From the IMG/VR virus record IMGVR_UViG_3300037493_000847, positions 1 through 41,580 of that record: a DNA stretch of 41,580 nucleotides. One strand, written 5' to 3'. This DNA comes from a virus. Position 1 is the first letter of the stretch. Every line of letters starts with the position of its first letter. Made by a program: the position numbers and the translations under genes. The notes under the pieces were generated by a model, which was not told where the DNA came from, searched no databases, and saw nothing but the letters and a program-made list of their open reading frames with translations. Positions 1-41,580 of the stretch are shown in pieces.

Positions 1-143
1 GGCGGGCAGGGGCAGGGCGGCGGCGGGCAGGGCGGCGGGCCAGTCAGGTGCTGGCGGCGGCGGGCAGGGGCAGGGCGGCGGCGGGCAGGGCGGCGGGCCA
101 GTCAGGTGCTGGCGGCGGCGGGCAGGGGCAGGGCGAAAGAATA
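1..143. repeat. Left-end GC-rich tandem array
   Basis: These bases consist almost entirely of GGCGGGC and GGGCAGG words. A 58-base unit starts at 1 and again at 59, shown by the AGTCAGGTGCTGG core at 42 and 100, and a partial third unit follows. The same words build the array at 41339-41580, so the two contig ends probably belong to one array that the assembly could not cross. No credible gene lies here; the open frame at 48-293 is a by-product of the repeats. Confidence 0.9.
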
Positions 144-162
144 GGCCCGCCAATGGCGGGCC
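133..162 (-). terminator. Probable Rho-independent terminator of the CobS-like transcript
   Basis: GGCCCGCC (144-151) and GGCGGGCC (155-162) form a perfect 8-base-pair stem with a 3-base loop. Read leftward, the stem is followed by TATTCTTTC, a short T-rich tail. It lies 28 bases past the stop of the leftward gene at 190-1053, the expected place for its terminator, and separates that transcript from the terminal array. The T tract is interrupted, so strength is uncertain. Confidence 0.55.
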
Positions 163-189
163 AGTCAGGGCGGCGGGCTGGCGGCGGGC

Positions 190-2273: not shown

Positions 2274-2302
2274 CAAATAGGGCGAGTGTAGGCCTAAGTC
2301 AA
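2274..2302 (-). promoter_or_regulatory. Leftward sigma70-like promoter for the CobS-like pair
   Basis: Read on the minus strand, TTGACT (2297-2302) is followed after 17 bases by TATTTG (2274-2279). The -35 is good, the -10 poor (about half of consensus). It lies 42 bases upstream of the chosen start codon. A perfect palindrome at 2318-2336 stands just upstream, as an operator or activator site could. Confidence 0.45.
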
Positions 2303-2317
2303 TCCTGACTTTACCTA

Positions 2318-2336
2318 TAAAACACCAGGTGTTTTA
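2318..2336. promoter_or_regulatory. 19-base perfect palindrome, operator-like
   Basis: TAAAACACC and GGTGTTTTA are perfect reverse complements around a single central base. The site begins 16 bases upstream of the -35 of the leftward promoter at 2274-2302. Size and symmetry suit a dimeric helix-turn-helix regulator. The regulator is unknown. Confidence 0.5.
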
Positions 2337-2460
2337 GCCTGGACAAAGCCCATTTTATCCAATGTTTTCAATGGTTTGTAAGATCGTGACGAAAAAACAC
2401 CGAAAATAACCAAGCAATTTCAATAGGTTACAGCGTCCTCGCGCGCGGTGCTATATCACC

Positions 2461-2490
2461 TACGCGCGTGGCTTTATCGCTTCGCGCAGT
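2461..2490 (+). repeat. GGCTTTAT element, copy 1
   Basis: The 30 bases here match 3510-3540 closely, with one single-base gap and a few changes: both read TA(C/T)GCGCG, GGCTTTAT, then CGCGCAGT. A shorter relative (GGGCGAGGCTTTAT) lies at 3469-3482. The copies flank the iteron region. Their role is unknown; binding sites or origin elements are possible. Confidence 0.55.
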
Positions 2491-2800
2491 GACCTATAGT
2501 CACCGCCCTAGCTGCGCGGCGGGCGGCGGGTCACGGGTCTATCGTGGCCCAAGTCAGTTTGTCGGGATGTTGGGGCGTGATCTAACGGGCGGCGGGCGGC
2601 ATAGGGCCAGAGGCCAGCACAAACCCTGCAAAATGCGAAGTCAGGGTTGGGATAGGGGTAGGCCTAGGCCAAGCGACATGGGCCTGTGGCGGGCCTCTGC
2701 GGGCCTCTGCGGGCCATTAGGTCTGGCCTAAGCAATGGTTAGTCAGCAAAAGTCAGGCTAGACTAGCACTATTCCAACATCCGGCCCCGATCTGGCCTAA

Positions 2801-2815
2801 TTAGGCATTGCCTAA
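2801..2815. repeat. TAGGCATTGCCTA palindrome, copy 1
   Basis: TTAGGCA and TGCCTAA form a perfect palindrome about one central base. The inner 13 bases recur exactly at 2910-2922. The surrounding 300 bases are packed with related TAGGC and GCCTA words, including TAGGCCTA at 2289-2296. Confidence 0.55.
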
Positions 2816-2909
2816 GTATGGCATAGGCATAGCCCATGCAGGCATAGGGCATAGCATAGGCCAAACCTAAGCACCGCATAAGCATGGCCTACCCAAGTCA
2901 GGGCATGGG

Positions 2910-2922
2910 TAGGCATTGCCTA
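2910..2922. repeat. TAGGCATTGCCTA palindrome, copy 2
   Basis: An exact second copy of the 13-base palindromic core found at 2802-2814, 108 bases away. Repetition of a palindrome in a non-coding region suggests paired binding sites for one dimeric protein. Confidence 0.55.
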
Positions 2923-3019
2923 TGCAAGTCATAGGGTTGGCCTAACCTCGTGCGCGACCCGCGCCCAAGCCGTCCGGCGGTGCAGCGGGCGGCGGCGTGT
3001 CACGCATCCCGCGCCGTCC

Positions 3020-3119
3020 AGTCAGGGCCAAGTCAGGGCCAAGTCAGGGCCAAGTCAGGGCGGCAATATGGTTCAACCTTGAACCAAGTCAGGGCCAGTC
3101 AGGGCGGGCCAAGTCAGGG
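3020..3119 (+). repeat. AGTCAG iterons with 11-base spacing
   Basis: AGTCAGGG starts at 3020, 3031, 3042 and 3053, exactly 11 bases apart with an 11-base unit AGTCAGGGCCA. Three more copies lie at 3087, 3097 and 3112, beyond a palindrome (3069-3086). Even spacing of about one helical turn places the copies on one face of DNA, as in iteron-type origins. Confidence 0.8.
3069..3086. promoter_or_regulatory. 18-base palindrome between iterons
   Basis: TGGTTCAA and TTGAACCA form a perfect inverted repeat around two central bases. It sits between the four 11-base-spaced iterons and three further AGTCAG copies. Confidence 0.5.
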
Positions 3120-3290
3120 CGTTAACCGGTATGGATTATGCAGCAATATCAGTAGGTTAGCCTGAGTCAGGGCTGACTTTGACGCGCGACCCCCCCACGG
3201 GGCGGCGGCGGACGGGGCAGTTTTATTTTGACACCCTAACAGGCTGTCACCCAATAAATTTTACTTTTTCGGAAAAACACAACACGCGTC

Positions 3291-3340
3291 GAGTCAGCGT
3301 GAGTCAGGGCCAGTCAGGATGAGTCAGGCCGAGTCAGCGA
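3291..3340 (+). repeat. AGTCAG iterons with 10-base spacing
   Basis: AGTCAG begins at 3292, 3302, 3312, 3322 and 3332: five copies exactly 10 bases apart, with variable bases between. The constancy of the hexamer against changing spacers indicates selection on the hexamer and its spacing, not simple slippage. AT-rich DNA follows directly (3341-3370). Confidence 0.82.
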
Positions 3341-3368
3341 CCTCAAAAATTTTCCGCTGCAAAATTTT

Positions 3369-3388
3369 GAACTACTAAGTAGTAGTTC
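3369..3388. promoter_or_regulatory. 20-base palindrome, operator-like
   Basis: GAACTACTA (3369-3377) and TAGTAGTTC (3380-3388) are perfect reverse complements around two central bases. It stands about 190 bases upstream of the rightward promoter and 29 bases past the phased iterons. It could be a dimeric repressor or initiator site. Confidence 0.55.
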
Positions 3389-3409
3389 ACTTTGAGGGCG
3401 AAACCGCAC

Positions 3410-3454
3410 CACAAAATTTGCCGGCGTAATTCACAAAATTTGCCGGCGTAATTC
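3410..3454 (+). repeat. Tandem duplication, 22-base period
   Basis: The unit beginning CACAAAATTTGCCGG occurs at 3410 and again, identical over 23 bases, at 3432. The unit contains the AAAATTT word also seen at about 3345-3368, so the AT-rich stretch has a repeated design. Confidence 0.8.
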
Positions 3455-3509
3455 TGGCTCAATATCGCGGGCGAGGCTTTATGAACGAACGCGCTATTGC
3501 CATATGTCC

Positions 3510-3540
3510 TATGCGCGAGGCTTTATCCCATACGCGCAGT
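3510..3540 (+). repeat. GGCTTTAT element, copy 3
   Basis: This near copy of 2461-2490 lies just upstream of the rightward promoter. Its ends (TGCGCG and CGCGCA) could pair in a 6-base stem. A TTGCCA at 3497-3502 spaced 18 bases from CTTTAT would make a weak alternative rightward promoter. Confidence 0.5.
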
Positions 3541-3577
3541 CCACTACAGGTGGACTACGCTGGCGCTCCGTCCCCTG

Positions 3578-3606
3578 TGGACACACCAGCATTCTGTCGC
3601 TATACT
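3578..3606 (+). promoter_or_regulatory. Rightward sigma70-like promoter for the packaging and structural operon
   Basis: TGGACA (3578-3583), exactly 17 bases, then TATACT (3601-3606): five of six consensus bases in each box. Transcription would begin near 3613, about 14 bases before the terminase small subunit ATG, and the transcript carries the GGAGGG ribosome binding site at 3617-3622. Confidence 0.7.
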
Positions 3607-3626
3607 TTTGGCAACTGGAGGGAACC

Positions 3627-4019
3627 ATGTCAGATAGCCCACTGCCCAATGCCAAGCTGACTGTTGTGCCGCAGTCGCCGGAAGATCAGGTCCGCAAGGC
3701 TGCTGTTCACGACAGGTATGCGCTGGACGCTGCGAGTGCGAAGTTGCTGAAGGAGAATGGGCGGCGTGCTGTCCTCAAGATGTTCGAGATGCTGAACGAC
3801 GAGGAGAAGTGGAATGGGATGGGTCCGCGCAATCAAATGGCGCTGATCGACATGGCGATCACACGAGCCTATGGGCGCGTCGAGACTGTCAGTGCAGAAG
3901 CGAAATTGGCTGACTCAACCTCTGAGGTTGCAGGGGCTTTGCCACACCACTTGCGTTTGCTGGCAGGGACGTTGAACTTGCCAGAGTTGCAAGGGGCGAA
4001 GTCAGCGAAGAAAGATTGA
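3627..4019 (+). CDS. Probable terminase small subunit
   Basis: The 130-residue protein is small and largely helical. The region at residues 55-85 (LNDEEKWNGMGPRNQMALIDMAITRAYGRVE) resembles phage small terminases seen just upstream of SU10/P22-like packaging genes, and the C-terminus is Lys-rich. Small terminases recognise the packaging site and present DNA to the large subunit. I chose the ATG at 3627 because GGAGGG lies five bases upstream; the open frame extends back to 3504 but would start upstream of the promoter. It is the first gene of the rightward operon. A hairpin lies directly downstream. Similarity is by position and general form rather than by a diagnostic motif. Confidence 0.65.
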   Translation: MSDSPLPNAKLTVVPQSPEDQVRKAAVHDRYALDAASAKLLKENGRRAVLKMFEMLNDEEKWNGMGPRNQMALIDMAITRAYGRVETVSAEAKLADSTSEVAGALPHHLRLLAGTLNLPELQGAKSAKKD

Positions 4020-29075: not shown

Positions 29076-31154
29076 TCAGCCCTCTAGCTTGAAGATGCGG
29101 AAGAACGTGACCAGAGGGGAACCATAGCGGTTCTCCTTTGTTTCCAGCATCACGTTGTAGCCGCCAGCGACATTCTTGCCCGTCGATGGGAACAGCCCCA
29201 GCAAGAACGAACTCAAGTCAGCAGCGTCAGCCCGCATCTTTGACGCCTTCGAATACAGGTTCGTGTCCTTCAGCGCCTCTTTCAAATGCTCGTGCATCCG
29301 CTTCAACGGCACAATGCCCACACCATAGGCCGCGACAGCGGCGTAGAGCGGCTGATACATCATCTCCAGCCGCAGCATTTCAGACGCAGCATCCGCTGCC
29401 TCGTTCACTGACTTGGCCCCCGGAAGCAGCACAGGCGCTGTAATCTCGTAGCCCTGATTGCTGATGCCCAGCTTCTCAGTCACGATGTCGAACAGGAACG
29501 TCTTGTCGTCGTCGATAGACCGCGCCATCAAGATTTTCAGTTCGAGTTGGTCAGTCTCCTCGTTCTTGGTCAAAGTCAGCAGCGTGTCAGGTTCAGCCTG
29601 AATGTTGCTCGAACCGCGCGGCCCGCTGCCGTTCTTGGTATTGTGGTGAATGATGACCACCGCTGCCTTGATGCCAGCGTCCTTGATCTTGGCGATGACA
29701 TCGAACACCGCCGATGTGTCTTCCACGCTGTTCTGGTCGCCTCCGGGCATTGCCTTAGTCAGCGTGTCGATGACGATGACGCCGATGTGGTTTTCGCCCT
29801 TCTTCAGCCACCACGCATCCGCTGCCTTGATCTGCTCCACGAGATTAAGTCGCGCCGCTTCGTCCAGAAGGTTGATGCTTTCTTCGACAGTGTAGAACGG
29901 GAACGTCTTTTCATCTGTGTATTTCTCGTCCGCTGGGTCGTGGTATTTCTTCCACGCCATCAGACGTTTCCTGATCGCGGTCTGGCTTTCAAGAGCGAAA
30001 TACAGCACGGGGCGGCGCTCTGTCACAGTCAGCGTATCATCGAAGTTAAGACCAGCAGCGATGTGCATAGCCAAGGTCTGACTGACCAGCGTCTTCCCTG
30101 CCTTGGGATCAGCCGAAATCAGCGTGACTTCGCTCGCATGGTAGATCGGGTGCATGATGAACTCCTCCGTCAGAACGTCTAGCTTCTCGTGGCCGAAATA
30201 GCCGCGCTTGCCCGCAAACGGAAAGTCATCGCCGTAGGAAGCCGCTGTCACCACGGGCAACTGCGCGTTCTCAATCCGTGTGGCCGGAAACATAGTCGCG
30301 GCCATTTCCTTCAGCCAGACGGGGGCGGCATCGCGCAGCCCGTCTGTCTTCGAGACTGTGTTGAACTTCGAGTGGCCGCTGCCGACGATGCGCGTCAACT
30401 CGCCGCTCTTGTCCGCCATGATAGGCTCCCAGCGGTCGTGCCGTGGGTGCTTTGGGTTGGCGGCGACTGAAGCGTTCATCAGCCCCAGCAGCGTGGCTTG
30501 CACAGACTCCATAGGCTCGCCAGCAGACGACATCTTGGCTGCAAGCTGAGTCAGGCTGTCGTGGAAATCATCCCCCGTCAGGATGTTCTTCTTTAGGGCC
30601 TCTATGGGCGTGGCGGCTTGGGCTACCCTAGCAGAGCGAAGGTGGTCTAGGAGGCCCGCAGAGGCCGCTACAGCGCCTTCGCTGACTACAGTGTAACCCG
30701 GAGAGGGTGGAACGACGATATAGCCCCCCTCGCCCTTTACCTCGACGCCCTTGGACGGCTTGCAATTAGGGAACTCTGTGTCGGACGAGAAGATGTAGTG
30801 CCGACCGCCGTTCCGTGTGGCGTGGACGCGCGTCTTGGGCATGAAGCCTGACTGAGACAGCCAAAGGACATACTTCTTCGCCGCCTCGCCTGATTCGCCT
30901 TCCTTGTAAGTGTCGGCGTCAATGGCGAACAAGCCAGAGGCTTCCCCCATCCTTGCGCCGATACCATGCAGACGGCTCCCAGCATCCAGAAACATTTGCC
31001 GGATGCGATCTGGATCAGTCGTGGCATCGTAAAAGCCGTTCTGGGTCAGGGGCCGCTTGTCGTCGCCTGTCGGAAACACTGGGACGCCTAAGTCTGCCCA
31101 GTCCAGCGCCGCTTCGATCAAGTCAGCGGGCGTGATGACTTGGTGCATATTCAT
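29076..31154 (-). CDS. PrimPol-helicase fusion (replicative primase/helicase)
   Basis: The 692-residue protein joins two enzymes. Residues 10-165 form an archaeo-eukaryotic-type primase/polymerase domain: metal site FAIDADT (D79, D81), TRNGGRHYIF (His119), and VEVKGEGGYIVVPPS (137-151). Residues 320-560 form a RecA-like helicase of the RepA/AAA_25 kind: Walker A SADPKAGKT (347-355), Walker B IGVIVIDTLT (D463), then VVIIHHNTK (499-507) and GPRGSSNIQAEPD. It would prime synthesis and unwind DNA at the phage fork. The ATG overlaps the resolvase stop (ATGA). No separate initiator gene was seen. Confidence 0.92.
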   Translation of the reverse strand: MNMHQVITPADLIEAALDWADLGVPVFPTGDDKRPLTQNGFYDATTDPDRIRQMFLDAGSRLHGIGARMGEASGLFAIDADTYKEGESGEAAKKYVLWLSQSGFMPKTRVHATRNGGRHYIFSSDTEFPNCKPSKGVEVKGEGGYIVVPPSPGYTVVSEGAVAASAGLLDHLRSARVAQAATPIEALKKNILTGDDFHDSLTQLAAKMSSAGEPMESVQATLLGLMNASVAANPKHPRHDRWEPIMADKSGELTRIVGSGHSKFNTVSKTDGLRDAAPVWLKEMAATMFPATRIENAQLPVVTAASYGDDFPFAGKRGYFGHEKLDVLTEEFIMHPIYHASEVTLISADPKAGKTLVSQTLAMHIAAGLNFDDTLTVTERRPVLYFALESQTAIRKRLMAWKKYHDPADEKYTDEKTFPFYTVEESINLLDEAARLNLVEQIKAADAWWLKKGENHIGVIVIDTLTKAMPGGDQNSVEDTSAVFDVIAKIKDAGIKAAVVIIHHNTKNGSGPRGSSNIQAEPDTLLTLTKNEETDQLELKILMARSIDDDKTFLFDIVTEKLGISNQGYEITAPVLLPGAKSVNEAADAASEMLRLEMMYQPLYAAVAAYGVGIVPLKRMHEHLKEALKDTNLYSKASKMRADAADLSSFLLGLFPSTGKNVAGGYNVMLETKENRYGSPLVTFFRIFKLEG

Positions 31155-31675
31155 TTGGCCGACCCAATGTCTTCCCAGTATTTTGCCAACAGCAGCGACT
31201 CAGCGCGGTTGTGGTCCATCTTGCGGGCAAAATAGCCAGCGTCATCCGGCCACGTTTCGATGGCACGAAGCCGTGCTGGCTCCTTGGGGTTCTGGAGCGT
31301 GACAGGGATTTTCATCGCTGGCTTCCAGACTGATGGCGGCACTAGCCTGTAGGGCAGCTTCAGCCCAGAACAGATGCCTTCCGTCAGGAACATCGACCCA
31401 ACAAACGGGACGCCAGCACTCAGGCTCTCGTTAGGGCGGATCGTGACGCGCTCAATGATGACCATTGGCTGGTAATTATACTCAGCGGCCAGCGCCTTCG
31501 CAGTCCGCAAGATCGTGGTGATAAGGGCGGCTTGGTTTACCCAAGAGGCGGTCTTGCGCCCTGCCTTTACCATCTGCACAGCGACTTCTTCGCCGCTATA
31601 AACCTTGTAGGGTTTGCCTTCCAACAGGACGCCGATAGTCAGCGGCGATCCGGGGTCCACTCCGATTGTAAACAT
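31151..31675 (-). CDS. RuvC-like Holliday junction resolvase
   Basis: The 174-residue RNase H-fold nuclease has catalytic acidic residues at D7 (IGVDPGS), E75 (VIIERV) and D154 with E159 (MDHNRAESLLLA). It resolves branched DNA made in replication and recombination before packaging. The ATG at 31675 is chosen because AGGAGG lies five bases upstream; a longer frame to 31735 has no such site. It lies between DNA polymerase and primase genes. Confidence 0.9.
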   Translation of the reverse strand: MFTIGVDPGSPLTIGVLLEGKPYKVYSGEEVAVQMVKAGRKTASWVNQAALITTILRTAKALAAEYNYQPMVIIERVTIRPNESLSAGVPFVGSMFLTEGICSGLKLPYRLVPPSVWKPAMKIPVTLQNPKEPARLRAIETWPDDAGYFARKMDHNRAESLLLAKYWEDIGSAK

Positions 31676-31777
31676 TTGGTCCTCCTTAGCAGAACTGTGA
31701 TACTGATCTTTTTGTAGGCATCTGTGAAGCCACACAATATGGGGGGGTCAGCCCCTAGTGGCTACAAGATGTAGTGT
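31676..31777 (-). promoter_or_regulatory. Leader between DNA polymerase and resolvase genes
   Basis: This 102-base gap carries the leader motif GTTCTGCTA (plus-strand complement around 31687-31696) followed by GGAGGACC. It also has two small inverted repeats on the minus strand: CTACA/TGTAG, and GGGG/CCCC around CTGA. A 10-codon frame ending in Phe-Cys-stop lies just upstream of the resolvase ribosome binding site. No good promoter is visible. Confidence 0.4.
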
Positions 31778-33568
31778 TTACGGCTTCGCCGCCCAAGATT
31801 GGCCGACTGCGCTTTCCGACAGATTGGCGGTTTCAGCATTGGGGAAAATGTCCAGCCAAGCCTGACGCATTTCCTCCACCATGATTTCCCGCAGTTCTTC
31901 ACCATGCCCAGTCTCTGCCAGCATCAGCAATTCGTCGTGGATCGACGCCAGCATCCGCGACTTGAACGGCAGTTCGTAGACTTTGAAACTCATGCGCGTG
32001 ACAGCGCGATACATCACATCGGCGGCAGCGCCTTGGATGGGATAGTTGGACGCCACGGGCATCGACCGCTCGTTCTTGTGGACGTAGACAGTGCGCCCAG
32101 ACTTGATCGGCAGCAGCCCTGTGGCGTTCATCTGATCGAACATCTGGTGGCGCAGCGCATAGGCGTAGGGATACCGCTCCGCCCACTTCTCGACGTATTC
32201 CGCCGCCTCGCCGTCCGAACAGCGCAGCACCATAGCCAGAGCGGCGTTGCCAGCGCCGTAGGTAAGCTGGAAGCTGAATGCCTTGGCCTTGGACCGCATC
32301 TCCTTAGCCCGTGGGTCTTTGGCCTTCAGGCGGGCCTTGAAGTCCTTGGGATCGACACGGAACAGCGTGATGGCCGACTCAGCGTGAACGTCCCCAAAGA
32401 TCACATCTTGCTTTAGCTGTGGATCGTTGCTGACTTCCGCCAAGACGCGCAGTTCGATGCCGCTGTAATCGGCCAGCACCATCTCTGTGTCCGGCGGGGC
32501 GATGAAGGAGCGTCGCACCATAGGATTGCGCGGGATATTCTGAAGGTTCGGGTTCGATGACGAGTAGCGGCCTGTGATGGCTTGGGCGATGTTAAAGCGC
32601 CCGTAGACGCGCCCTGCCAGCCTCTGCTTGTTCAGCAGCACTTCGCCGTAGGTGCTTAGGTATTTGTCCGCCCGATTGAATACCATCAGCGCGGCAAGCC
32701 AGCGCGAGAATGGGTAGGGCGATCTGAAGGACGCCTGACGCAGTTGCTTGCGGTCAGTCTGAAGTTGCTCTGACTTATCAGTCTTGGGCCATGCCCGCAG
32801 ACTTGTCTCGTCCATGACAGTCTTGATGAAGTCAGAGAGTTGCTTTTTTGAGCGGAGGTTCGCAATCATGTCTTCTGGCGTGTAGTGCCGCAAGACCTTC
32901 TCAGCCACATCGCGCCGCAGCGACCACATCTTAATCAGGCCGCTGTGATGTTCCTCGTCGATGCTCATGCCTGTGTCTTCCATTTCCGCCGTGCCGCGCC
33001 ATGCGTCATTCAGAACGTAGAAGCCCGCCATCTGCTCCGCCGTCAGAGCCGCAGACCACATCGTGTAGAGGTTATAGGTGTCCTCTGCATCCTCGAAGCC
33101 GTAGTCATACTGCTCCAGCGACAGTTCTTTCTGCGACCAGTCAGACACCTGAAGGTGCTTGTTGTCGCGGGCCTTGCCCAGATCGCGCTTGACCATATCG
33201 GCCAGCGACAGCGGGCGACCGCCCAGCTTCGCCTTCGACATGACGCCCACATCGAACAGCACAACGTCCGGCCCATCAGTGGCGAAGTCGAACCAGCGCC
33301 CCTCGAAGCCAGCGTTGAACACCGCCCACGGGCAAGCGTCCGCCAGCGCGTTGGCGTAGAAGGTGAACGGCTTGCACAGCAAGTGGTCGATGACGTAGTT
33401 GCCAGCGGGGCCGCTGATGCAAGTCAGACGCACTTTTGAGTCTTGGGGCCGCAGCCCAGTTGTCTCGAAGTCCAGCGCGTGGACTGCACCTGAGTCCGTG
33501 ATTTCCTTGATGACTTGCTGCGCTTGTTCGTGCGAAGCCACAAGTTTGTATTGACCTAATTTATCCAT
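31778..33568 (-). CDS. Family A DNA polymerase with 3'-5' exonuclease
   Basis: The 596-residue replicative polymerase has an exonuclease domain (about 20-180): Exo I LDFETTG (D33, E35), Exo II FNAGFEGRWF (84-93) and Exo III YGFED (D160). The polymerase domain carries motif A DYSGIELR (367-374), motif B R425-K429-F433-Y437 within RSKAKAFSFQLTYG, and motif C IHDE (543-546). All catalytic residues are present. The residue matching E. coli Pol I 762 is Phe433. No 5'-3' exonuclease domain. It replicates the phage genome with the PrimPol-helicase. Confidence 0.96.
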   Translation of the reverse strand: MDKLGQYKLVASHEQAQQVIKEITDSGAVHALDFETTGLRPQDSKVRLTCISGPAGNYVIDHLLCKPFTFYANALADACPWAVFNAGFEGRWFDFATDGPDVVLFDVGVMSKAKLGGRPLSLADMVKRDLGKARDNKHLQVSDWSQKELSLEQYDYGFEDAEDTYNLYTMWSAALTAEQMAGFYVLNDAWRGTAEMEDTGMSIDEEHHSGLIKMWSLRRDVAEKVLRHYTPEDMIANLRSKKQLSDFIKTVMDETSLRAWPKTDKSEQLQTDRKQLRQASFRSPYPFSRWLAALMVFNRADKYLSTYGEVLLNKQRLAGRVYGRFNIAQAITGRYSSSNPNLQNIPRNPMVRRSFIAPPDTEMVLADYSGIELRVLAEVSNDPQLKQDVIFGDVHAESAITLFRVDPKDFKARLKAKDPRAKEMRSKAKAFSFQLTYGAGNAALAMVLRCSDGEAAEYVEKWAERYPYAYALRHQMFDQMNATGLLPIKSGRTVYVHKNERSMPVASNYPIQGAAADVMYRAVTRMSFKVYELPFKSRMLASIHDELLMLAETGHGEELREIMVEEMRQAWLDIFPNAETANLSESAVGQSWAAKP

Positions 33569-33622
33569 GTCTCTAATATCCTGATTGGTCCTAGCAGAAC
33601 CAGCCTCCTGCCGAGGTTAACT

Positions 33623-33660
33623 TAGCCCCCAGTTTGGTCACTGGGGGCTATTTTTTTATT
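33623..33660 (+). terminator. Strong Rho-independent terminator, rightward orientation
   Basis: TAGCCCCCAGT (33623-33633) and ACTGGGGGCTA (33640-33650) form a perfect 11-base-pair stem with a 6-base loop, followed by TTTTTTTATT (33651-33660). The T tract lies on the plus strand, so it stops rightward transcription although the genes on both sides run leftward. Read leftward, no T tract follows the stem. It would catch late rightward read-through. Confidence 0.85.
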
Positions 33661-34370
33661 TACAGGACGCCGCGACGACGACGAGCAGCGGGAACGCCGC
33701 CACCTTCCGACGAGCGGATCAGCCCGTCGATGTCAGCGTCAGGATCAGCCGCCAATTCTGCACAGGCGGCGTCAGACAGCCAGCCGTAGACAGTCAGCAC
33801 GGGCTTGTAGTTTTTCTGCCCTTGGGCTTCAAACTTCTCTTTGCCCAGATTGACCAGAGGCCAAGACGGACGCCCAGCGCGAAGGCGCTCACCGACTTGC
33901 TGGAGCAAGTCAGCAAAGACAGCCACGCCGCTCTTGGAGTTGATCTTCCAGTAGCCTTGGCGGTCGTCTGCTTCCAGCGACTTGATGACCATCGACTTCG
34001 CTGCAAACCAGCCTTCACCCTGCGAGGTGTTGAACGGGCCTTGCTCGTCGGCGGCTGGCGCAGGAATGCGCTGATCGCTGTAGATGTTCGCCATGCGGGT
34101 GGCGATAGTCTTGCCGCCCTTCCAGCAAACATAGCCATCCTCGAAGGACGCGATGTTCACCAGCCACAATTCGCTGGCGTCGATGTCTTCCTTGTCCTTA
34201 CCGAACTCGTAGACGCCGCGCTTACCAGTGAAGTTGAGGTAGACGGAGCCGTCAGGTGCGCCGCCGATCTGGCCCTGCGCTGCGGATGCAGTGACTGCAT
34301 CTGCCATCGCTTGAGCGTTGACGAGGGCGACAGGTCCGCCAAACGGCGAGGTGGTTACTTCGTTTGCCAT
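33660..34370 (-). CDS. Probable single-stranded DNA-binding protein
   Basis: The 236-residue protein has alternating strands and aromatic residues in its middle (GSVYLNFTGKRGVYEFGKDKEDI, ELWLVNIASFEDGYVCWKGGK, QGYWKINSKSGVAVF). It sits directly upstream of DNA polymerase and downstream of a recombination nuclease, where phages often encode an OB-fold single-strand binding protein. Unlike most such proteins its C-terminus is basic (PAARRRRGVL) rather than acidic, although an Asp-rich stretch (DPDADIDG) precedes it. GGAG lies before the ATG. The identification rests on context and general look. Confidence 0.55.
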   Translation of the reverse strand: MANEVTTSPFGGPVALVNAQAMADAVTASAAQGQIGGAPDGSVYLNFTGKRGVYEFGKDKEDIDASELWLVNIASFEDGYVCWKGGKTIATRMANIYSDQRIPAPAADEQGPFNTSQGEGWFAAKSMVIKSLEADDRQGYWKINSKSGVAVFADLLQQVGERLRAGRPSWPLVNLGKEKFEAQGQKNYKPVLTVYGWLSDAACAELAADPDADIDGLIRSSEGGGVPAARRRRGVL

Positions 34371-34386
34371 GTGTTTTCTCCTATGG

Positions 34387-35415
34387 CTATGTGTCTAGTT
34401 TTGCTGTGACTTCCAGACGGACGGACGGCTTACCGACCTTGTAGAACCCGTCTGCACTGACCCCAGTGGCCTTCTCGTAAGCCTTGGTGTCCAGTGTCCT
34501 ACGCCCAGCCACTTCCGTGACTTTGACGCTGTAGGCAGCAGTGTCGAACACCATCTGGTTCTCTCCTGTTGCATACTCCTTGATGGTAGCCGCCAGATCG
34601 TCTGCGCGGGCTTCCAAAGCCTTGATCTGCTCCTTGATGGAGCCGTATTCCCTGACTGACTCAGTGATGCCGCGCGGGGCGAAGACGGGCATCGACGGCT
34701 TGTCGGCCTTGCGCTTCTCTCCCTTGGCAACCTGAATGGCACTGCATTCCTCCTTGAAGGCGCAGTAGGTGCAGCCGTTGTTGGTCAAGCCCTCTGCGGG
34801 CAAGTCCATCACATCTGTGTCGAACAAGATGGCAGCGCGGATTTCTGCCCGCTGCGCTGTCTCGCCGTTGTCGTAGGCCACGTTGAATTGCTTGTGCCTC
34901 TGGAAGTCAGAGGCATCGACATACAGCACCATCGCCTCATCGACAGTGTAGTCGTGCATATTCAGCAGCCACATATTCTGCTGCACCTGTGCGGCGTGTT
35001 GCGGCTTGGGGGCAGTCATGCCCTCCAGATTGGTGCGCGGATCGACTGACTTAAACTCCAGCAGTATCCATTTGCCATCCACCATCACAAGGCCGTCAGG
35101 CGTCCCAGACAGGCCGCTCTCGTCGTGCAGGAAGGACCGCTGCTGGTCGCCAGCAAACATAGGCAGCAGCATGGCGCGGCGCAGTTGCTCGACCAACCAT
35201 GCCTCGACAGCGTGACCGCGCTCTGCCATGCCCCACTTGTCGCTCTCGCGGGGTGTGGTCTTGGAAAACTTCAGTTCGCGCAAGCAGCGCAAATTTTCGG
35301 AAGCGGTAAGGACCGCATTGCGATCAAGAAACTCGTCCGTGCTTCCGTGCAGAGGCCACGCTGACTTGTTCAGCGCGACACCTTCTTCGATATACTTGAA
35401 TAGGTCGATTGCCAT
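34387..35415 (-). CDS. Cas4/RecB-like PD-(D/E)XK nuclease
   Basis: The 342-residue protein has a PD-(D/E)XK core: RGHAVEAW (66-73), GTPDG (D107), LLEFKS (E120, K122) and HAAQVQQNMWLL (140-151). Cysteines C44, C215, C218 and C224 (CTYCAFKEEC) are placed like the four ligands of the Fe-S cluster in Cas4 and AddB. After about 240 there is a separate helical and beta C-terminal domain (IKEQIKALEARADDLAATIKEY...), unusual for short Cas4-type enzymes. Likely role: exonuclease in recombination or host DNA breakdown. GGAGGG precedes the ATG. Confidence 0.87.
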   Translation of the reverse strand: MAIDLFKYIEEGVALNKSAWPLHGSTDEFLDRNAVLTASENLRCLRELKFSKTTPRESDKWGMAERGHAVEAWLVEQLRRAMLLPMFAGDQQRSFLHDESGLSGTPDGLVMVDGKWILLEFKSVDPRTNLEGMTAPKPQHAAQVQQNMWLLNMHDYTVDEAMVLYVDASDFQRHKQFNVAYDNGETAQRAEIRAAILFDTDVMDLPAEGLTNNGCTYCAFKEECSAIQVAKGEKRKADKPSMPVFAPRGITESVREYGSIKEQIKALEARADDLAATIKEYATGENQMVFDTAAYSVKVTEVAGRRTLDTKAYEKATGVSADGFYKVGKPSVRLEVTAKLDT

Positions 35416-35490
35416 TTAGCCCTCCAGTTGCGTTAGGACAAACACAGACTGAACATGGGGCCGATGCGATGGTGCGCTGGTCATGGTCAT
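35416..35490 (-). CDS. Possible 24-residue leader peptide of the nuclease gene
   Basis: A frame from ATG 35490 (second in-frame ATG at 35484) ends in TAA directly before the nuclease ATG. It starts MTMTSAPSHRPHVQ and contains the nuclease ribosome binding site in its last codons. No ribosome binding site of its own is seen, and it sits behind a promoter candidate. It may be a leader peptide or chance. Confidence 0.3.
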   Translation of the reverse strand: MTMTSAPSHRPHVQSVFVLTQLEG

Positions 35491-35525
35491 AGCAGTTAGA
35501 GTGTCTCGTGTGTTTGTCTATGTGT

Positions 35526-35555
35526 AGAGTAGTGCGGTAGTCTGTAGGCTGTCAA
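35526..35555 (-). promoter_or_regulatory. Internal leftward promoter before the nuclease gene
   Basis: On the minus strand, TTGACA (35550-35555) is followed after 18 bases by TACTCT (35526-35531). The -35 is perfect, the -10 weak. It overlaps the end of the gene at 35552-35851 and would feed nuclease, SSB-like, polymerase, resolvase and primase genes separately from the early operon. Confidence 0.5.
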
Positions 35556-35851
35556 GCCCTATCGTTGATAGTATTTCGACATTCGCCAGCGATGGCGGCG
35601 TAGGCTGCGGCGTCCACATAGTTGTCGTGCTTGTAGCCTGTAGACGACCGCGCAATTTTCAGCAGCAACATGATCCAAGCCATGTCCTCAGAGTCCAAGT
35701 CCACTTCGATGCTGTGCTTTCCAAACAGGTAGGCTTGGACGAGCCGCGCCATGTTAGTCAGGTTGTCGTGCGGATCGCCGTAGTCTTTCTCTCGGTCGCC
35801 CGCTGTTATATCCGCTGCCTGACTTAGGATATTCTCTCGCACAGAAGTCAT
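35552..35851 (-). CDS. Conserved phage protein, DUF6378-like
   Basis: The 99-residue protein contains DREKDYGDPHDNLTNMARLVQAYL and then DMAWIMLLLKIARS...KHDNYVDAAAYAAIAGE, the pattern of a widespread phage family (DUF6378, from memory), probably an all-helical, MazG-like fold. Function is unknown; nucleotide handling has been suggested for similar folds. The ATG at 35851 is chosen because GGAGAG stands four bases upstream. Confidence 0.82.
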   Translation of the reverse strand: MTSVRENILSQAADITAGDREKDYGDPHDNLTNMARLVQAYLFGKHSIEVDLDSEDMAWIMLLLKIARSSTGYKHDNYVDAAAYAAIAGECRNTINDRA

Positions 35852-35916
35852 CGTTCTCTCCAAATTCGTCGGGGGGCTTGGTTATTATTGATTGGGCCGT
35901 AGCGCAGTCCGTCAAC

Positions 35917-35985
35917 TTACCATTGCTTCAAAACGTCCATTGCCGCTTGGATGCGCCCCCCAGACCACAGTCCTAGCGCAGTCAT
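35917..35985 (-). CDS. 22-residue micro-ORF in the early operon
   Basis: The frame MTALGLWSGGRIQAAMDVLKQW opens on an ATG that overlaps the stop of the 46-residue frame (ATGA at 35982-35985) and ends in TAA at 35917. The overlap matches the coupling used throughout this operon, the main reason to list it. The peptide could form one amphipathic helix. The remaining 65 bases to the next gene hold nothing I recognise. Confidence 0.35.
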   Translation of the reverse strand: MTALGLWSGGRIQAAMDVLKQW

Positions 35986-36122
35986 CTGTCACCGCGCAAG
36001 AGCCTTTTTACCAAGTCTTCAATCTCGTCCAGACTTGCCTTTAACTCGCTGTCTCTCTGTGTCGAGAGCAACTGTTTTGCGCGCTTGAGCAAGTTTAACA
36101 GCCTTATTTGTATGCTCTGCAT
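35982..36122 (-). CDS. 46-residue coiled-coil protein in an alternative frame
   Basis: The frame from ATG 36122 to TGA 35982 reads MQSIQIRLLNLLKRAKQLLS...DSELKASLDEIEDLVKRLLRGDR, a regular charged amphipathic helix that looks like real protein. It overlaps the last 104 bases of the 71-residue frame at 36019-36234 in another frame, and its stop overlaps the ATG of the next micro-ORF. Its ribosome binding site is weak (GGGA). Either or both overlapping frames may be used. Confidence 0.5.
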   Translation of the reverse strand: MQSIQIRLLNLLKRAKQLLSTQRDSELKASLDEIEDLVKRLLRGDR

Positions 36123-36234
36123 CAGGTTTTTCCCAAGGTGGACAAGTCAGACTTACGGATCGTTCTGGTATGTCAGAACTGCTATAGGCAGCGTGACTTC
36201 TGATGATAACGTGCTTGATTGTAGCTGTAGTCAT
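36019..36234 (-). CDS. Small early protein, 71 residues
   Basis: The ATG overlaps the stop of the upstream helix-turn-helix-like gene (ATGA at 36231-36234). The sequence is MTTATIKHVIIRSHAAYSSS..., then a Cys/Pro turn (LTCPPWEKP) and a basic helix (NKAVKLAQARKTV). The second half is shared with the 46-residue alternative frame. No family recognised. Confidence 0.55.
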   Translation of the reverse strand: MTTATIKHVIIRSHAAYSSSDIPERSVSLTCPPWEKPDAEHTNKAVKLAQARKTVALDTERQRVKGKSGRD

Positions 36235-36539
36235 GGCTGCGTTACCTTCTCAATAAAGCGGGCAATAGCCTCGTTTAGCATCGCTTTTCTTTTTGCTCCA
36301 CCGCGACTGCTGATGTCGGCATATGCCTTGCGCGGTAAGCCTAGTGCCTCACTGGCCGAACGCATAGACCGAAACTCGACGGGGCCAATGACAACTTTCT
36401 TTGGCTTAGTTTGCCCCAGACCAATCAAGTCTGCTTTGCCTTTTGAGATCGCGCCGTAGACGCCTTCTTCCGTCATGTCGAAAACTTCTGCGACTTCTTT
36501 GACTGACTTGTAAATCTTGTCTCTTACTCTGACTCGCAT
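36231..36539 (-). CDS. Small DNA-binding protein with two NUMOD/HTH-like motifs
   Basis: The 102-residue protein has two similar segments: YKSVKEVAEVFDMTEEGVYGAI (about 10-31) and FRSMRSASEALGLPRKAYADI (about 55-75). Both have the SxxEAAxxLGxxxxxVxxxI pattern of NUMOD1-type helix-turn-helix modules that in phages accompany homing endonucleases or act alone. No nuclease domain is attached. It is the best candidate for a sequence-specific DNA-binding protein in this genome. ATG at 36539 is in the TAATG overlap with the upstream gene. Confidence 0.75.
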   Translation of the reverse strand: MRVRVRDKIYKSVKEVAEVFDMTEEGVYGAISKGKADLIGLGQTKPKKVVIGPVEFRSMRSASEALGLPRKAYADISSRGGAKRKAMLNEAIARFIEKVTQP

Positions 36540-36748
36540 TACAGCCCTGTTGGTCTTTTTGGTGGGCGCGGCGACACGATGATCTGGTCCGTGTAGATGC
36601 ACTGCATGATGAGGTGGTCAAAACCTAAGTCTTCAGCTTGAGCGATTGCGTTAGCCATAGCGTCATTGCATGAGTAGTCAGCGGGCAGCTTAAAGCCTGT
36701 CTGCGACCCATCGATCCACGTTATCAGTAGGTATGCTAAAACTTTCAT
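36539..36748 (-). CDS. Small early protein, 69 residues
   Basis: Starts at ATG 36748 behind GGAGG; the frame extends further but only this start has a ribosome binding site. It reads MKVLAYLLITWIDGSQTGFKL...YSCNDAMANAIAQAEDLGFDHLIMQCIYTDQ, a small alpha/beta pattern often seen in phage early regions. It ends PRPPKRPTGL. Function unknown. Confidence 0.68.
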   Translation of the reverse strand: MKVLAYLLITWIDGSQTGFKLPADYSCNDAMANAIAQAEDLGFDHLIMQCIYTDQIIVSPRPPKRPTGL

Positions 36749-36750
36749 TG

Positions 36751-36828
36751 TTACCTCCACAGTTCGATGATGTATCCGGCGTAGACCAGTGCGGCTATGC
36801 CAAAGGCTTCGTAAATACCTTCGCCCAT
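36751..36828 (-). CDS. 25-residue single-pass membrane micropeptide
   Basis: ATG at 36828 overlaps the preceding TGA (TGATG) and is preceded by GGAGGGGGAG, a very strong ribosome binding site. The peptide reads MGEGIYEAFGIAALVYAGYI and ends IELWR, one hydrophobic helix. Its TAA lies within the GGAGGTAA that serves as ribosome binding site for the next gene. The combined signals make translation likely. Confidence 0.6.
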   Translation of the reverse strand: MGEGIYEAFGIAALVYAGYIIELWR

Positions 36829-37172
36829 CACTCCCCCTCCAGTTCAGCCAGCACGGCGTCCGCTAGTTCGTGAAAGTAATCAGTGCAGTGGACGCACTCA
36901 ACAGATTTGATCTCCCGCAGCGCCTCCACCGCCTTGGTCAGCTTGGCCCTAAGATCAGCCATTGCCTCCTCGTGGATAGACCATGCAAAATCAGGTTGGC
37001 CGTAGCGTGCCGCGTTCAGTTTGCGCCCTAGGTCATCACGTTCTTTCACCAACTCTTCGATGCAGTCGGCGGCGGCAGTCTCAGCCTCTGTCGGGTAGGA
37101 TTTTCCGCCTTCCCAGACAACGCGAGATGCCCGCAGCCGCTTCTTGAGATCGTCAATCATTTCACGCTTCAT
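36828..37172 (-). CDS. Coiled-coil early protein
   Basis: A 114-residue helical protein (MKREMIDDLKKRLRASRVV..., CIEELVKERDDLGRKLNAARYG, MADLRAKLTKAVEALREIK) with a CVHC pair near the end. This pattern is frequent in phage accessory regions (Ead/Ea22-like in style). ATG 37172 is preferred; GTG 37181 would add three residues. The 25-base gap upstream holds nothing else. Confidence 0.65.
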   Translation of the reverse strand: MKREMIDDLKKRLRASRVVWEGGKSYPTEAETAAADCIEELVKERDDLGRKLNAARYGQPDFAWSIHEEAMADLRAKLTKAVEALREIKSVECVHCTDYFHELADAVLAELEGE

Positions 37173-37197
37173 AAAGGTCACTCATTTCGTTTTTCCC

Positions 37198-38490
37198 TTA
37201 GTCGATGATCTTGGTGGCTGACTTGCCTTTGCGGGCGACGACCATGCCTACAGCCTCATCCATTGGATGCTCTGCCTCACAGATGTCGATCTGCACATGG
37301 GTGTCCTGCCCCAAGCGCCAAAGGCGGCGCATAGCCTGTTCTTGGGCAGCGGGGGACCAATCACGCTCTGCGAAAACGGCATAGTGACTGCCTTTCTGTA
37401 GATTGATGGCGACACCCATAGAGGCGATCTGGCCCAGCAGTATGTCGCACTCTTGCGCGTTGAAGTCTGCCTCTGCCTCGGCCCTCTTGTCTTGCGAAGT
37501 CGCGCCGTCGATCTTGCGTATGGTCAAAAGCTGGTTCTTGCTTTGGAGTTGCTCCGCCAGCGCGTTGCCTACGTCCTTGTGCCAATACAGCACCAAGACA
37601 GGGCAAGTCAGTTGCTCCCACACATCGTAGACGTATTCCGCCACATGGTTTGCCTTGGCTACGCCAAGCAGTCTGCGGGCCTTCGCCATAATCGGGTCAG
37701 ACTCGCCCGCGTAGACGGCCTCTCCTGTTGCCTCACGCAGTTCGTCACTGTTGTCGAAGTCCACAGTGACTTGGCGAATAGTCAGGGGCGGCATATAGGC
37801 CGCAACGTCCGCCATCGTGCGCCGGACAGCGATCTTGTTGCTGTAAACAAAGTCCCGCAGTTGGTCCTCGTTCTTGTTGCCTATGACTGTCGCCTTCATG
37901 GGCTGGCGCGGATGGAAGCGCCGCATTTGGGTGACGCAAAATTTATTCTGGAAGGCAGTGAGCGATGATATGCCGAAATACTTTTGCAGATGGTCGGGCC
38001 ACAAGGCTTGCAGCATTGGATACAGGTCGTCAGCGTAGCGCCGGATCGGTGTGCCAGTCAGAAACCATACATATGGGACGCCGTAAGCAAGGCACTGAGT
38101 CATTTTGCAGCGCACACCAAACACAGCCTTGGTGCGCTCAGATGATAGCGTCTTCAAAGCGTCCGCTTCGTCCAGCACCAGAACATTAGGCTGCAAGCCA
38201 AACTTGCCAGCCATAGCGTAGGACATGACGAAGGCGTCAGCCTTATCGTCGATCTTGTCTTTGCCGCTCTTGATACGCTGCACACGCTTGCCGCAGTGGT
38301 CTTCGATGTTCTTCGCCCACATCCCAAGGGCAATGGGCGGGGCGACCACAACGAGCCGCCCTCCCACCTTATTCCACGCCTCTAGCGCAGTCAGCGTCTT
38401 GCCTGTTCCGGGTTCTGAAAACAGGCACGCCCGGCGCTGCCTGACTAGAAAGGCAGCGTCTTCGATCTGGGTTGGCAGGGGCGTCATCAT
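37198..38490 (-). CDS. SNF2/DEAD-type helicase
   Basis: The 430-residue superfamily 2 ATPase has an N-terminal Q-like segment (PLPTQIEDAAFLVRQRRACL), Walker A SEPGTGKT (25-32), motif Ia VVVAPPIALGMW, motif II LVLDEAD (104-110), motif III FLTGTPIRR (143-151), and C-terminal motifs VLVLYWHKD, LLGQIASMGVAINLQ and AQEQAMRRLWRLGQ. It is short for SNF2 proteins but motif-complete, like other phage SNF2 helicases that act in replication or recombination. Its ATG overlaps the upstream stop. Confidence 0.92.
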   Translation of the reverse strand: MMTPLPTQIEDAAFLVRQRRACLFSEPGTGKTLTALEAWNKVGGRLVVVAPPIALGMWAKNIEDHCGKRVQRIKSGKDKIDDKADAFVMSYAMAGKFGLQPNVLVLDEADALKTLSSERTKAVFGVRCKMTQCLAYGVPYVWFLTGTPIRRYADDLYPMLQALWPDHLQKYFGISSLTAFQNKFCVTQMRRFHPRQPMKATVIGNKNEDQLRDFVYSNKIAVRRTMADVAAYMPPLTIRQVTVDFDNSDELREATGEAVYAGESDPIMAKARRLLGVAKANHVAEYVYDVWEQLTCPVLVLYWHKDVGNALAEQLQSKNQLLTIRKIDGATSQDKRAEAEADFNAQECDILLGQIASMGVAINLQKGSHYAVFAERDWSPAAQEQAMRRLWRLGQDTHVQIDICEAEHPMDEAVGMVVARKGKSATKIID

Positions 38491-38936
38491 CAGTGCGCCG
38501 CCCCTTTGTGCTTCTTGAGCAGTTCAGCCAGCATATCCTTGCCAGCGTCCAGTTGCCCCACAATTTCTTCCGACCGCAGTTCCGCCGCCAGCAACCCTAT
38601 TTGCGCTGCCCGCTTCTGGTCTTTCAGCAGCGCCTTAGCTGCGCCTCTTGCCAGTTCTAGGTTTCCTTCTTTGTCTTTGGACCCCGCGCACATATAGATG
38701 CCAGCAGCCATGTAGGTGGCATAGCGCGTCATATCGCTTGCAAGGTGGCCTAGCACCAAAAGCAAAAAGCTAGCGGTTTCCTCTTTGCCAAACCGCGCTT
38801 CGATGAAAGGTTCGGCGGCGGTGTCAATTTCTGTCACCTCTTTGCGGAGGCTCTCAAAAAGCTGGTCAGCGATCTTGTGGGCAAAGTCCACAATGCTGTC
38901 ATCTGGCCCAAGGGCGATAAGAATTTCGTCGGTCAT
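38490..38936 (-). CDS. Helical early protein, 148 residues
   Basis: A mostly helical protein (VDFAHKIADQLFESLRKEVTE, TASFLLLVLGHLASDMTRYATYMAAGIYM, DQKRAAQIGLLAAELRSEEIV). No catalytic motif. Its ATG lies within the leader motif TTCTGCTATGACC shared with other leaders of this operon. It precedes the helicase gene with a one-base overlap. Confidence 0.68.
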   Translation of the reverse strand: MTDEILIALGPDDSIVDFAHKIADQLFESLRKEVTEIDTAAEPFIEARFGKEETASFLLLVLGHLASDMTRYATYMAAGIYMCAGSKDKEGNLELARGAAKALLKDQKRAAQIGLLAAELRSEEIVGQLDAGKDMLAELLKKHKGAAH

Positions 38937-38951
38937 AGCAGAACCCTTTTT

Positions 38952-39413
38952 TCAGGTGTTGGTGTTGACGTAGGTAATCAGGTCGTCTTTAGCACTCTTG
39001 TAGGCAATGGCGGCAAGCGCCGCCTCGGCCCTGTGCCGTAGTGCTTCTGGGTCATCCCGCATAGATGCGCGGGCAGATGCCATTACCATATTCGACCAAT
39101 GCTCTTGCATGGTCAAGACCTTTTTATCAAAAAGTATATGCTGACTTGCAGTCAGGGCTTTGCGCCAGTTTGCCACAGTGTCTTGCTTTACTGCGACAGC
39201 TAGATTGCTCTGGGCCAGTGCGGCTAGGCGCGGATCGGCGTCATCTGCATTCCGCACGATGCCTTGCAAATACTTGTAGCGCGTGGCTTCTGCCATCTGC
39301 TGCATATCTGCCTCGGCCTCTCGCGGGATCAGCAGCCTGACTTGGCTTAGGCCCATTGCGTCTAGCTTGCTTAGGTAGGTCTGCATCTTTGCAGGGGTCT
39401 TGCTCATCGTCAT
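38952..39413 (-). CDS. Helical early protein, 153 residues
   Basis: ATG 39413 has AGAGGAG upstream and overlaps the previous stop (ATGA). The protein is Ala/Met/Gln-rich and helical (KMQTYLSKLDAMGLSQVRLLIPREAEADMQQMAEATRYKY; later WRKALTASQHILFDKKVLTMQEHWSNMVMASARAS). The segment LIPREAEADMQQMAEATR recalls ribbon-helix-helix or small regulatory proteins, but nothing definite. Confidence 0.65.
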   Translation of the reverse strand: MTMSKTPAKMQTYLSKLDAMGLSQVRLLIPREAEADMQQMAEATRYKYLQGIVRNADDADPRLAALAQSNLAVAVKQDTVANWRKALTASQHILFDKKVLTMQEHWSNMVMASARASMRDDPEALRHRAEAALAAIAYKSAKDDLITYVNTNT

Positions 39414-39955
39414 GGTTTCTCCTCTAGCCAAGCCCTAAGTTGGGCCTCGCTGACTTGGTTATAACTGATCTTGTAAACCCCCTTGCGGGGCCGCACTTGC
39501 TTGCCAGCATACCTAGCGTTAAAGTCATCTAGGACGCTCTGGCTCGTCTTAGGGTGGCTGTCTCGCGTTCTTGTGCGCCAGACAGGCACACCGCCAGACA
39601 GTTCGACGCAGCGCAGCACTACGTCCCGCGCAGTATCTTCCCTCTTGTCTTTTTGCTCTTGTGCCACTGTCAGGGTCTGTTTTTCGTAGCTGATGCCTAG
39701 CGCGGCACAAGCTGCCTTCAGGCTTACCTGACGCAGCATTGCGGTGCAAGTAAAGTCAGCTTTCAGCTTGTCGTATCGCCATGCTGGCGGCTTTCCGGCG
39801 CTATTCTTGTTCCAGTATCGCGCTGCACCTTCGGGATCGTAAGCCTTGGAGAAGCTGGAAGCGTAGAAGTCAGCCGTTCTTGCGGCCCATACAATGCGAC
39901 CGCCCTGCACTGTCAGGGCGGTCTTGATCTGCTCTTGCGTCAGGGGCAGGGTCAT
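39410..39955 (-). CDS. Early protein of unknown function, 181 residues
   Basis: No family recognised. The middle (YDKLKADFTCTAMLRQVSLKAACAALGISYEKQTLTV) contains an HTH-like stretch, LKAACAALGIS. The C-terminal part is basic (KQVRPRKGVYKISYNQ) and ends in a short helix. ATGA overlaps on both sides. It might bind DNA. Confidence 0.62.
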   Translation of the reverse strand: MTLPLTQEQIKTALTVQGGRIVWAARTADFYASSFSKAYDPEGAARYWNKNSAGKPPAWRYDKLKADFTCTAMLRQVSLKAACAALGISYEKQTLTVAQEQKDKREDTARDVVLRCVELSGGVPVWRTRTRDSHPKTSQSVLDDFNARYAGKQVRPRKGVYKISYNQVSEAQLRAWLEEKP

Positions 39956-40146
39956 TCTTTCGCCCTTGCTATAGCCATCCAGTCATCGACATCTATTTCT
40001 AGATCGTCCACCATATCCACCAGCCGCTGAATGACAAAAACTAGGCTTGGCTCTGCCTCGCTGTAAGCGTCTACCAAGTCAGCCAATAGGGCGTGACGGG
40101 TGGCTGGCTCGTCCAGTTCGTGCGCTCGCATCTGCCACAGTTTCAT
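39952..40146 (-). CDS. Small acidic early protein, 64 residues
   Basis: A helical and acidic protein (MKLWQMRAHELDEPATRHALLADLVDAYSEAEPSL...MVDDLEIDVDDWMAIA). ATGA overlaps join it to both neighbours. Size and charge resemble small phage inhibitors or DNA mimics, but that is speculation. Confidence 0.6.
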   Translation of the reverse strand: MKLWQMRAHELDEPATRHALLADLVDAYSEAEPSLVFVIQRLVDMVDDLEIDVDDWMAIARAKE

Positions 40147-40367
40147 TTCTTGTCCTCCAGCGCAGTCAGGCGCTTTTCGTGAGCCAACAGGATTTGGTGC
40201 ATCCGCAGCCAGTTTTGGTGGGTGTCGCCCCGCGCAAAGCCAAGCTGACTTTGGATAGCCAACTGTTCTTTGTGCATCGCCTCTTGTTCAGGCGTCCGCA
40301 AGTCTGTGACGTAGACGCGGGGTGCTGGACCCTTAAACGTGTTCATCCACGGCCATTTTTTCATCAT
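40143..40367 (-). CDS. Small early protein, 74 residues
   Basis: Starts MMKKWPWMNTFKGPAPRVYVTDLRTPEQ and continues as a helix (EAMHKEQLAIQSQLGFARGDTHQNWLRMHQILLAHEKRLTAL). The ATG at 40367 overlaps the upstream stop in ATGA and follows an AGAGGG ribosome binding site; a longer frame back to 40412 is unlikely. Function unknown. Confidence 0.62.
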   Translation of the reverse strand: MMKKWPWMNTFKGPAPRVYVTDLRTPEQEAMHKEQLAIQSQLGFARGDTHQNWLRMHQILLAHEKRLTALEDKK

Positions 40368-40836: not shown

Positions 40837-40943
40837 AGTCCAACACTCCCCAGCCCGTAGCCAATAAGGCCAACAACGATGATCCACGGCACAAAGACAT
40901 AAGGCCGCGACATAAATTCCAAAAACTCTTTCAGGTCTTTCAT
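40833..40943 (-). CDS. 36-residue membrane micropeptide
   Basis: The frame opens at ATG 40943 behind AAAGGGGG and ends in the ATGA overlap at 40833-40836. It reads MKDLKEFLEFMSRPYVF, then a hydrophobic segment VPWIIVVGLIGYGLG and SVGL. One membrane helix, N-terminus charged. The strong ribosome binding site and exact fit between two genes make it a likely gene. Confidence 0.65.
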   Translation of the reverse strand: MKDLKEFLEFMSRPYVFVPWIIVVGLIGYGLGSVGL

Positions 40944-40957
40944 GGTCAGTCCCCCTT

Positions 40958-41254: not shown

Positions 41255-41282
41255 AGTCTAGTCTTTCTTACACTCTTGTCAA
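41255..41282 (-). promoter_or_regulatory. Main leftward early promoter
   Basis: On the minus strand, TTGACA (41277-41282), 16 bases, then TAGACT (41255-41260). A perfect -35 and a four-of-six -10. Transcription would start near 41248 and begin with the recurring leader motif CCTGCTAGACCC. Three TTCTTGC words (41289, 41300, 41309; complement GCAAGAA) at 11- and 9-base spacing lie just upstream, as activator or repressor sites would. Confidence 0.68.
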
Positions 41283-41338
41283 GCAACATTCTTGCAGCTT
41301 TCTTGCTATTCTTGCTTATATATCAAGTCAGTAAGTCA

Positions 41339-41580
41339 GGGGCAGGGGCGGCGGGCGCGGGCGGCGGGCAGGGCGGGCCAGTCAGGTGCTGGCGGCGGGC
41401 CAGTCAGGTGCTGGCGGCGGCGGGCCAGTCAGGTGCTGGCGGCGGCGGGCCAGTCAGGTGCTGGCGGCGGCGGGCCAGTCAGGTGCTGGCGGCGGCGGGC
41501 CAGTCAGGTGCTGGCGGCGGCGGGCAGGGGCAGGGCGGCGGCGGGCCAGTCAGGTGCTGGCGGCGGCGGGCAGGGGAAGG
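41339..41580. repeat. Right-end tandem array, 25-base units
   Basis: After GC-rich words, the core CAGTCAGGTGCTGGCGG occurs at 41379, 41401, 41426, 41451, 41476, 41501 and 41547. Four successive gaps are exactly 25 bases; the first is 22 and the last 46 with a GGGCAGG insert like that of the left-end array. The array lies upstream of the early promoter and continues the left end, so the contig probably closes here. No gene seen. Confidence 0.92.

Follow-up and report, generated by a model that had tools for sequence, protein, structure and literature searches.

A phased AGTCAG array next to an AT-rich stem-loop as a candidate replication origin of a phage encoding a PrimPol-helicase

The window, i.e., the entire stretch of DNA analyzed here, is the IMG/VR phage record IMGVR_UViG_3300037493_000847, which comprises 41,580 bases. 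The phage encodes the terminase large subunit, a PrimPol-helicase, a family A DNA polymerase, a PD-(D/E)XK nuclease, and an SNF2-type helicase. Genes at positions 190 to 2274 and 29076 to 41215 are directed leftward, and those at 3627 to 29075 rightward. On a circular reading of the window, the AGTCAG array that is the subject of this work lies in the only large divergent intergenic region (2275 to 3626), and a second repeat-rich intergenic region (41216 to 189) spans the contig ends. A search by terminase for a prophage or host among genome contigs returned none. The features discussed below are listed in Table 1; G004 to G006 are sister phages whose terminases are ∼92% identical to that of the window.

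Table 1. Coordinates of the features of the window discussed in the text
Feature	Position	Strand	Description
Array of five AGTCAG words	3292..3337	+	Exact 10-bp steps, variable 4-bp spacers; candidate origin iterons
AT-rich nested, branched stem-loop (as single strand)	3338..3400	+	Perfect inner arms 3368-3377/3380-3389; inverted repeats
GC-rich upstream AGTCAG cluster	2552..3170	+	Near-uniform orientation, steps often 10-11 bp; counterparts in G004-G006
Second AGTCAG cluster	41326..41571, then 1..168 on circle	+	Tandem units of ∼25 bp; other intergenic region
Conserved block CGCGACCCCCCCACGGGG...TTTTGACACC	3185..3243	+	TTGACA at 3228; possible promoter
Promoter-like site TGGACA-17-TATACT	3578..3606	+	Lies before the rightward (late) genes; G004-G006 have a counterpart
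Leftward (early) promoter-like site TTGACA-16-TAGACT	41255..41282	-	Read by eye; adjoins second AGTCAG cluster; matched in G004-G006
Small-terminase candidate gene	3627..4019	+	Assigned by position only, immediately before the region of the terminase large subunit; low-confidence fold
PrimPol-helicase	29076..31154	-	Prim-Pol (PF09250) and AAA_25; favored candidate for array binding via its C-terminal ∼90 residues
181-aa protein	39410..39955	-	Seen in AGTCAG-rich phages only; alternative candidate for binding

The initial annotation described five copies of AGTCAG at exactly 10-base spacing with changing bases between them. Both details were confirmed: the word starts at positions 3292, 3302, 3312, 3322, and 3332 of the plus strand, and the four-base spacers read CGTG, GGCC, GATG, and GCCG. 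As expected for an iteron origin, the repeats of the array (5 to 6 copies, depending on the phage) are direct, all on the same strand. When the 18 plus-strand sites of the control region were placed randomly, five equal steps (of any period from 7 to 24) appeared in 2 of 200,000 trials. The density of the word is 16.8 per kb in the control region vs. 3.3 per kb elsewhere, and steps of 10 or 11 bp account for 34 of the distances between successive AGTCAG sites in seven control regions. The tandem arrays of the other intergenic region (41326 to 41580 and 1 to 168) are fast-changing and occupy the same place in all clade members examined; their units contain AGTCAG in the window and in phage G007, AGTCAC in G004 and G005, and neither of these in G006.

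Related contigs were retrieved by terminase similarity, independently of the array. Wherever they cover the region (L003, which has six copies, L004, L005, L007/L009, and L019), the same array is found. Conservation of the spacing, on which the earlier reading had in part been staked, extends to six distinct related phages, in which the 5 to 6 hexamers are invariant and keep the 10-bp step while the spacers drift: with L003 left out, 9 of the 16 spacer columns are variable vs. none of the 30 word columns (Fisher P = 1e-5). A scan with a conserved 30-base block located ∼200 bp downstream found the array in six contigs out of six, all of them already known from the terminase-based set. At the corresponding place in G004 to G006, the five-copy array is absent, and the control region carries AGTCAG clusters and shorter runs with 10-bp steps. 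In G006, a gene for an HNH endonuclease-like protein is inserted in this region (L063, 3374 to 3895).

The DNA that follows the array is indeed AT-rich, as originally noticed, with 65 to 68% AT just after it (3341 to 3400) vs. 38 to 45% across the array. Folded as single-stranded DNA, the predicted stem-loop has an energy of −14.8 kcal/mol (z = −5.2), and the z values in relatives are −3.9 in L004 and −5.4 in L003. Two stem pairs are compensatory, with both sides changed between genomes, and the arms are conserved in L007 and L019. One of the six array-bearing genomes, L005, does not have the element, so the stem-loop is not indispensable.

We give about an even chance to the reading that the array consists of origin iterons recognized by the phage's own PrimPol-helicase, in the manner of the P4 alpha or pRN1 proteins. 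The array would then be the recognition part of the phage replication origin, with initiator monomers next to one another along a single face of the DNA over the phased AGTCAG words. Once bound, the initiator would open the neighboring AT-rich branched stem-loop or cause it to extrude, and helicase loading and priming would start there. The likeliest initiator is the PrimPol-helicase, which may contact the words through its divergent, winged-helix-like C-terminal end. Binding to the array, the protein responsible, and the role as an origin are all inferred.

Known replicons provide partial parallels to such an arrangement. The P4 alpha primase-helicase acts on iterons and has a C-terminal winged helix that recognizes the origin (PMC4234260). 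The window phage shares with P4 the combination of iteron repeats and a primase-helicase; however, the alpha primase is of the Toprim type and that of the window is an archaeo-eukaryotic Prim-Pol, and the iterons of the window are 6-mers at 10-bp steps whose word also fills the coding DNA. Plasmid pRN1, like the window with its predicted stem-loop, is a PrimPol-helicase replicon with a large noncoding stem-loop proposed as the origin; the stem-loop is essential there, and the pRN1 PrimPol, ORF904, has a C-terminal winged helix (PMC4234260). In contrast to the window, with its phased array before the stem-loop and its AAA_25 helicase, pRN1 has no iterons and a superfamily 3 helicase. At oriL and oriR of the lytic phage SPP1, direct repeats likewise adjoin an AT-rich unwinding element (PMC6316719), but SPP1 uses a separate origin-binding protein, gp38, and none has been identified in the window phage. 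If the proposal is correct, the locus would unite P4-style iterons and a pRN1-style stem-loop in one compact origin served by a PrimPol-helicase.

Several observations count against an origin read by the PrimPol-helicase at this site. The five-copy array is missing in G004 to G006 and the stem-loop in L005, the PrimPol-helicase gene lies ∼14 kb from the array on the circle, and the PrimPol C terminus is only moderately conserved between subclades that share AGTCAG. The winged-helix-like character of this terminus was read by eye, and the PrimPol profile matched no PDB sequence at an E value of 0.01. GC skew is uninformative on the origin: third codon positions are C-rich on the sense strand in both gene sets, and the skew therefore follows transcription.

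The clearest sign that the end of a primase-helicase may be matched to a word, and the strongest indirect evidence for the origin reading, comes from phages with ∼48% identical terminases, which carry lineage-specific 7-mer clusters immediately 3′ of the primase-helicase gene. From L077/L112 to L088/L119, the word changes from TAGGGAC to TAGGAAC, with the same base switched in 10 to 11 of 11 words, none of the 66 other word bases changed, and 25 to 59 of ∼300 bases changed outside the words. The clusters are located at L077 2218 to 2509, L112 2420 to 2711, L088 7088 to 7442, and L119 4515 to 4869. The primase-helicases of L077, L112, and L088 are ∼96 to 100% identical over nearly their full length and 82% identical in the last ∼56 residues; those of L112 and L088 also differ at the N terminus (86%). 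Pairs that share a word are 100% identical at the C terminus, even L088 and L119, whose N termini are 65 to 82% identical, and the C terminus of L083, which has TAGGGAC, shares 91% identity with its own word group and 80% with the other. Linkage between the cluster and the neighboring end of the gene may explain part of this covariation. A one-base switch in nearly every copy against a similar background argues for matched specificity. By analogy, this word switch suggests that the C terminus of the window PrimPol-helicase reads AGTCAG. The clearest covariation is seen in another, VapE-like, type of primase-helicase; two cluster-bearing phages, L091 and L098, share the AAA_25 helicase type with the window. 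A natural word switch paired with a protein end of ∼56 residues offers a direct route to studying how initiator and origin specificity change together.

Of the original iteron-origin interpretation, the conserved word with its 10-bp step and the AT-rich, structure-forming DNA stand, and the covariation in the terminase-sharing phages adds to them. The helix-turn-helix-like protein (36231 to 36602) that had been put forward as a binder is not supported, because it is absent from G004 to G006, which keep the word; it was accordingly rejected as the AGTCAG reader.

The word of the array had also been noted as enriched throughout the genome, and the counts agree: there are 163 AGTCAG sites, compared to a mean of 19.9 and a maximum of 31 in shuffled sequences. 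Coding DNA has 128 to 132 sites on both strands vs. 29 in synonymous-codon shuffles, and the enrichment is 3.8- to 6.7-fold in each of the five possible frames; in G004 plus G006, the corresponding counts are 231 and 54. AGTCAG is the most overrepresented hexamer in the coding DNA of the window and in that of G004 plus G006. Its intervals are Poisson-like (mean and standard deviation both 299), and at 75% nucleotide identity 48% of the sites are intact vs. 25% of permuted hexamers. No such enrichment was found in phages with terminases that are 63% (L018) or 29 to 50% (L073 to L134) identical. Phages with 40 to 41% identical PrimPols are without AGTCAG and have dispersed words of their own instead, namely, a TTCCCCTnnnnnAGGGGAA-type palindrome in L226 and L227 (G307 and G308), often well inside genes, and the palindrome CCTAATTAGG in L230 (G309), with many copies deep inside genes. 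A literature search on AGTCAG in phages found nothing relevant.

Origin iterons alone leave the enrichment in coding DNA unexplained. Tentatively, and with clearly less confidence than the origin itself, it can be proposed that one phage protein reads both the array and ∼130 dispersed sites kept by selection, with a lineage-specific word that marks phage DNA for replication and changes together with its reader. Such marking might serve, e.g., priming or helicase loading on both strands at a mean spacing of ∼300 bp; that the ∼130 single sites are secondary loading or priming sites is speculation. Word reading by a PrimPol at one place as well as genome-wide has a precedent in the NrS-1 PrimPol, which recognizes a specific 8-base template motif and short GTG sites (PMC8718748). 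What is new here is that a phased array occurs together with a stem-loop and a genome-wide word; if the origin reading holds, selection at the DNA level would also keep the recognition word of an origin in place throughout the genome.

The strand-balanced spread of the word over the genome would also fit a host-driven, Chi-like or uptake-like word with the array as a by-product, and the different words of relatives may reflect different hosts. This explanation appears very improbable. None of the 432 sampled proteobacteria (289 Alpha- and 143 Gammaproteobacteria) comes near the AGTCAG density of the phage, although the true host may lie outside this sample; the best outlier, G217, is explained by GAGTC enrichment; and exact phasing with drifting spacers would not be expected. 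G217 (loci L191 to L209) is a 1.86-Mb alphaproteobacterial chromosome that is strongly enriched in GAGTC-containing words.

Alternatively, AGTCAG may be bound by a phage protein that regulates transcription or coats the genome. This protein would nucleate with high affinity on the array, between the early and late transcription units, and would occupy the dispersed sites singly to silence, organize, or mark phage DNA. We regard this as possible but rather unlikely. It would account for an enrichment that extends to every frame and both strands and has Poisson-like spacing, for the roughly twofold-higher conservation of the word relative to permuted hexamers, for the dense clusters adjoining both main promoter-like sites, and for the dispersed in-gene words of the more distant relatives. 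However, the coding sites are not oriented with transcription: 49 are sense and 79 antisense, both above the shuffles. The same lack of co-orientation disfavors a stoperator system. Cluster A mycobacteriophage stoperators are likewise asymmetric, lineage specific, and dispersed throughout a phage genome (PMC6550527), but they are 13 bp long and mostly co-oriented with transcription, whereas the window has 163 hexamers without such orientation and no identified repressor. The best candidate for an alternative binder is the 181-aa protein, whose restriction to AGTCAG-rich phages speaks for it and whose only lead is a weak resemblance (a 37-column match) to the N-terminal part of an HNH protein. 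It has no PDB or Pfam match, and a fold search with its confidently predicted model (pLDDT 85) found no match.

The position of the array beside the late promoter and the candidate small-terminase gene makes an operator or a packaging function plausible as well. As a packaging (pac) site, the array would be contacted once per helical turn by the helix-turn-helix ring of the small terminase, just upstream of the gene for that protein. The array is ∼290 bp upstream of the gene that precedes the large terminase gene, within the promoter region of the former, and in the pac site of SPP1 direct repeats cover the small terminase gene promoters and start, with the helix-turn-helix motifs of the SF6 protein ∼1 turn apart (PMC4737164). 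Nevertheless, packaging seems improbable. The candidate is a small terminase by position only, with no family match and an unusable fold (pLDDT 47). The SF6 terminase itself has little specificity for the repeats (PMC4737164), the word of the window occurs genome-wide, and the dispersed sites and the covariation with primase-helicases would be left unexplained. The contig ends fall in the other repeat-rich intergenic region, away from the array.

Phased AGTCAG words were also encountered outside phages. A scan of bacterial sequences for four-copy arrays gave 56 matches, mostly perfect tandem repeats of a 10-mer. Four copies at 10-bp steps with variable spacers occur in metagenome-assembled genomes of Syntrophomonadaceae (L174 1917 to 1952, L188 3857 to 3892, and L182 565 to 600); these arrays, often followed by GTTC, are unrelated to the phage.
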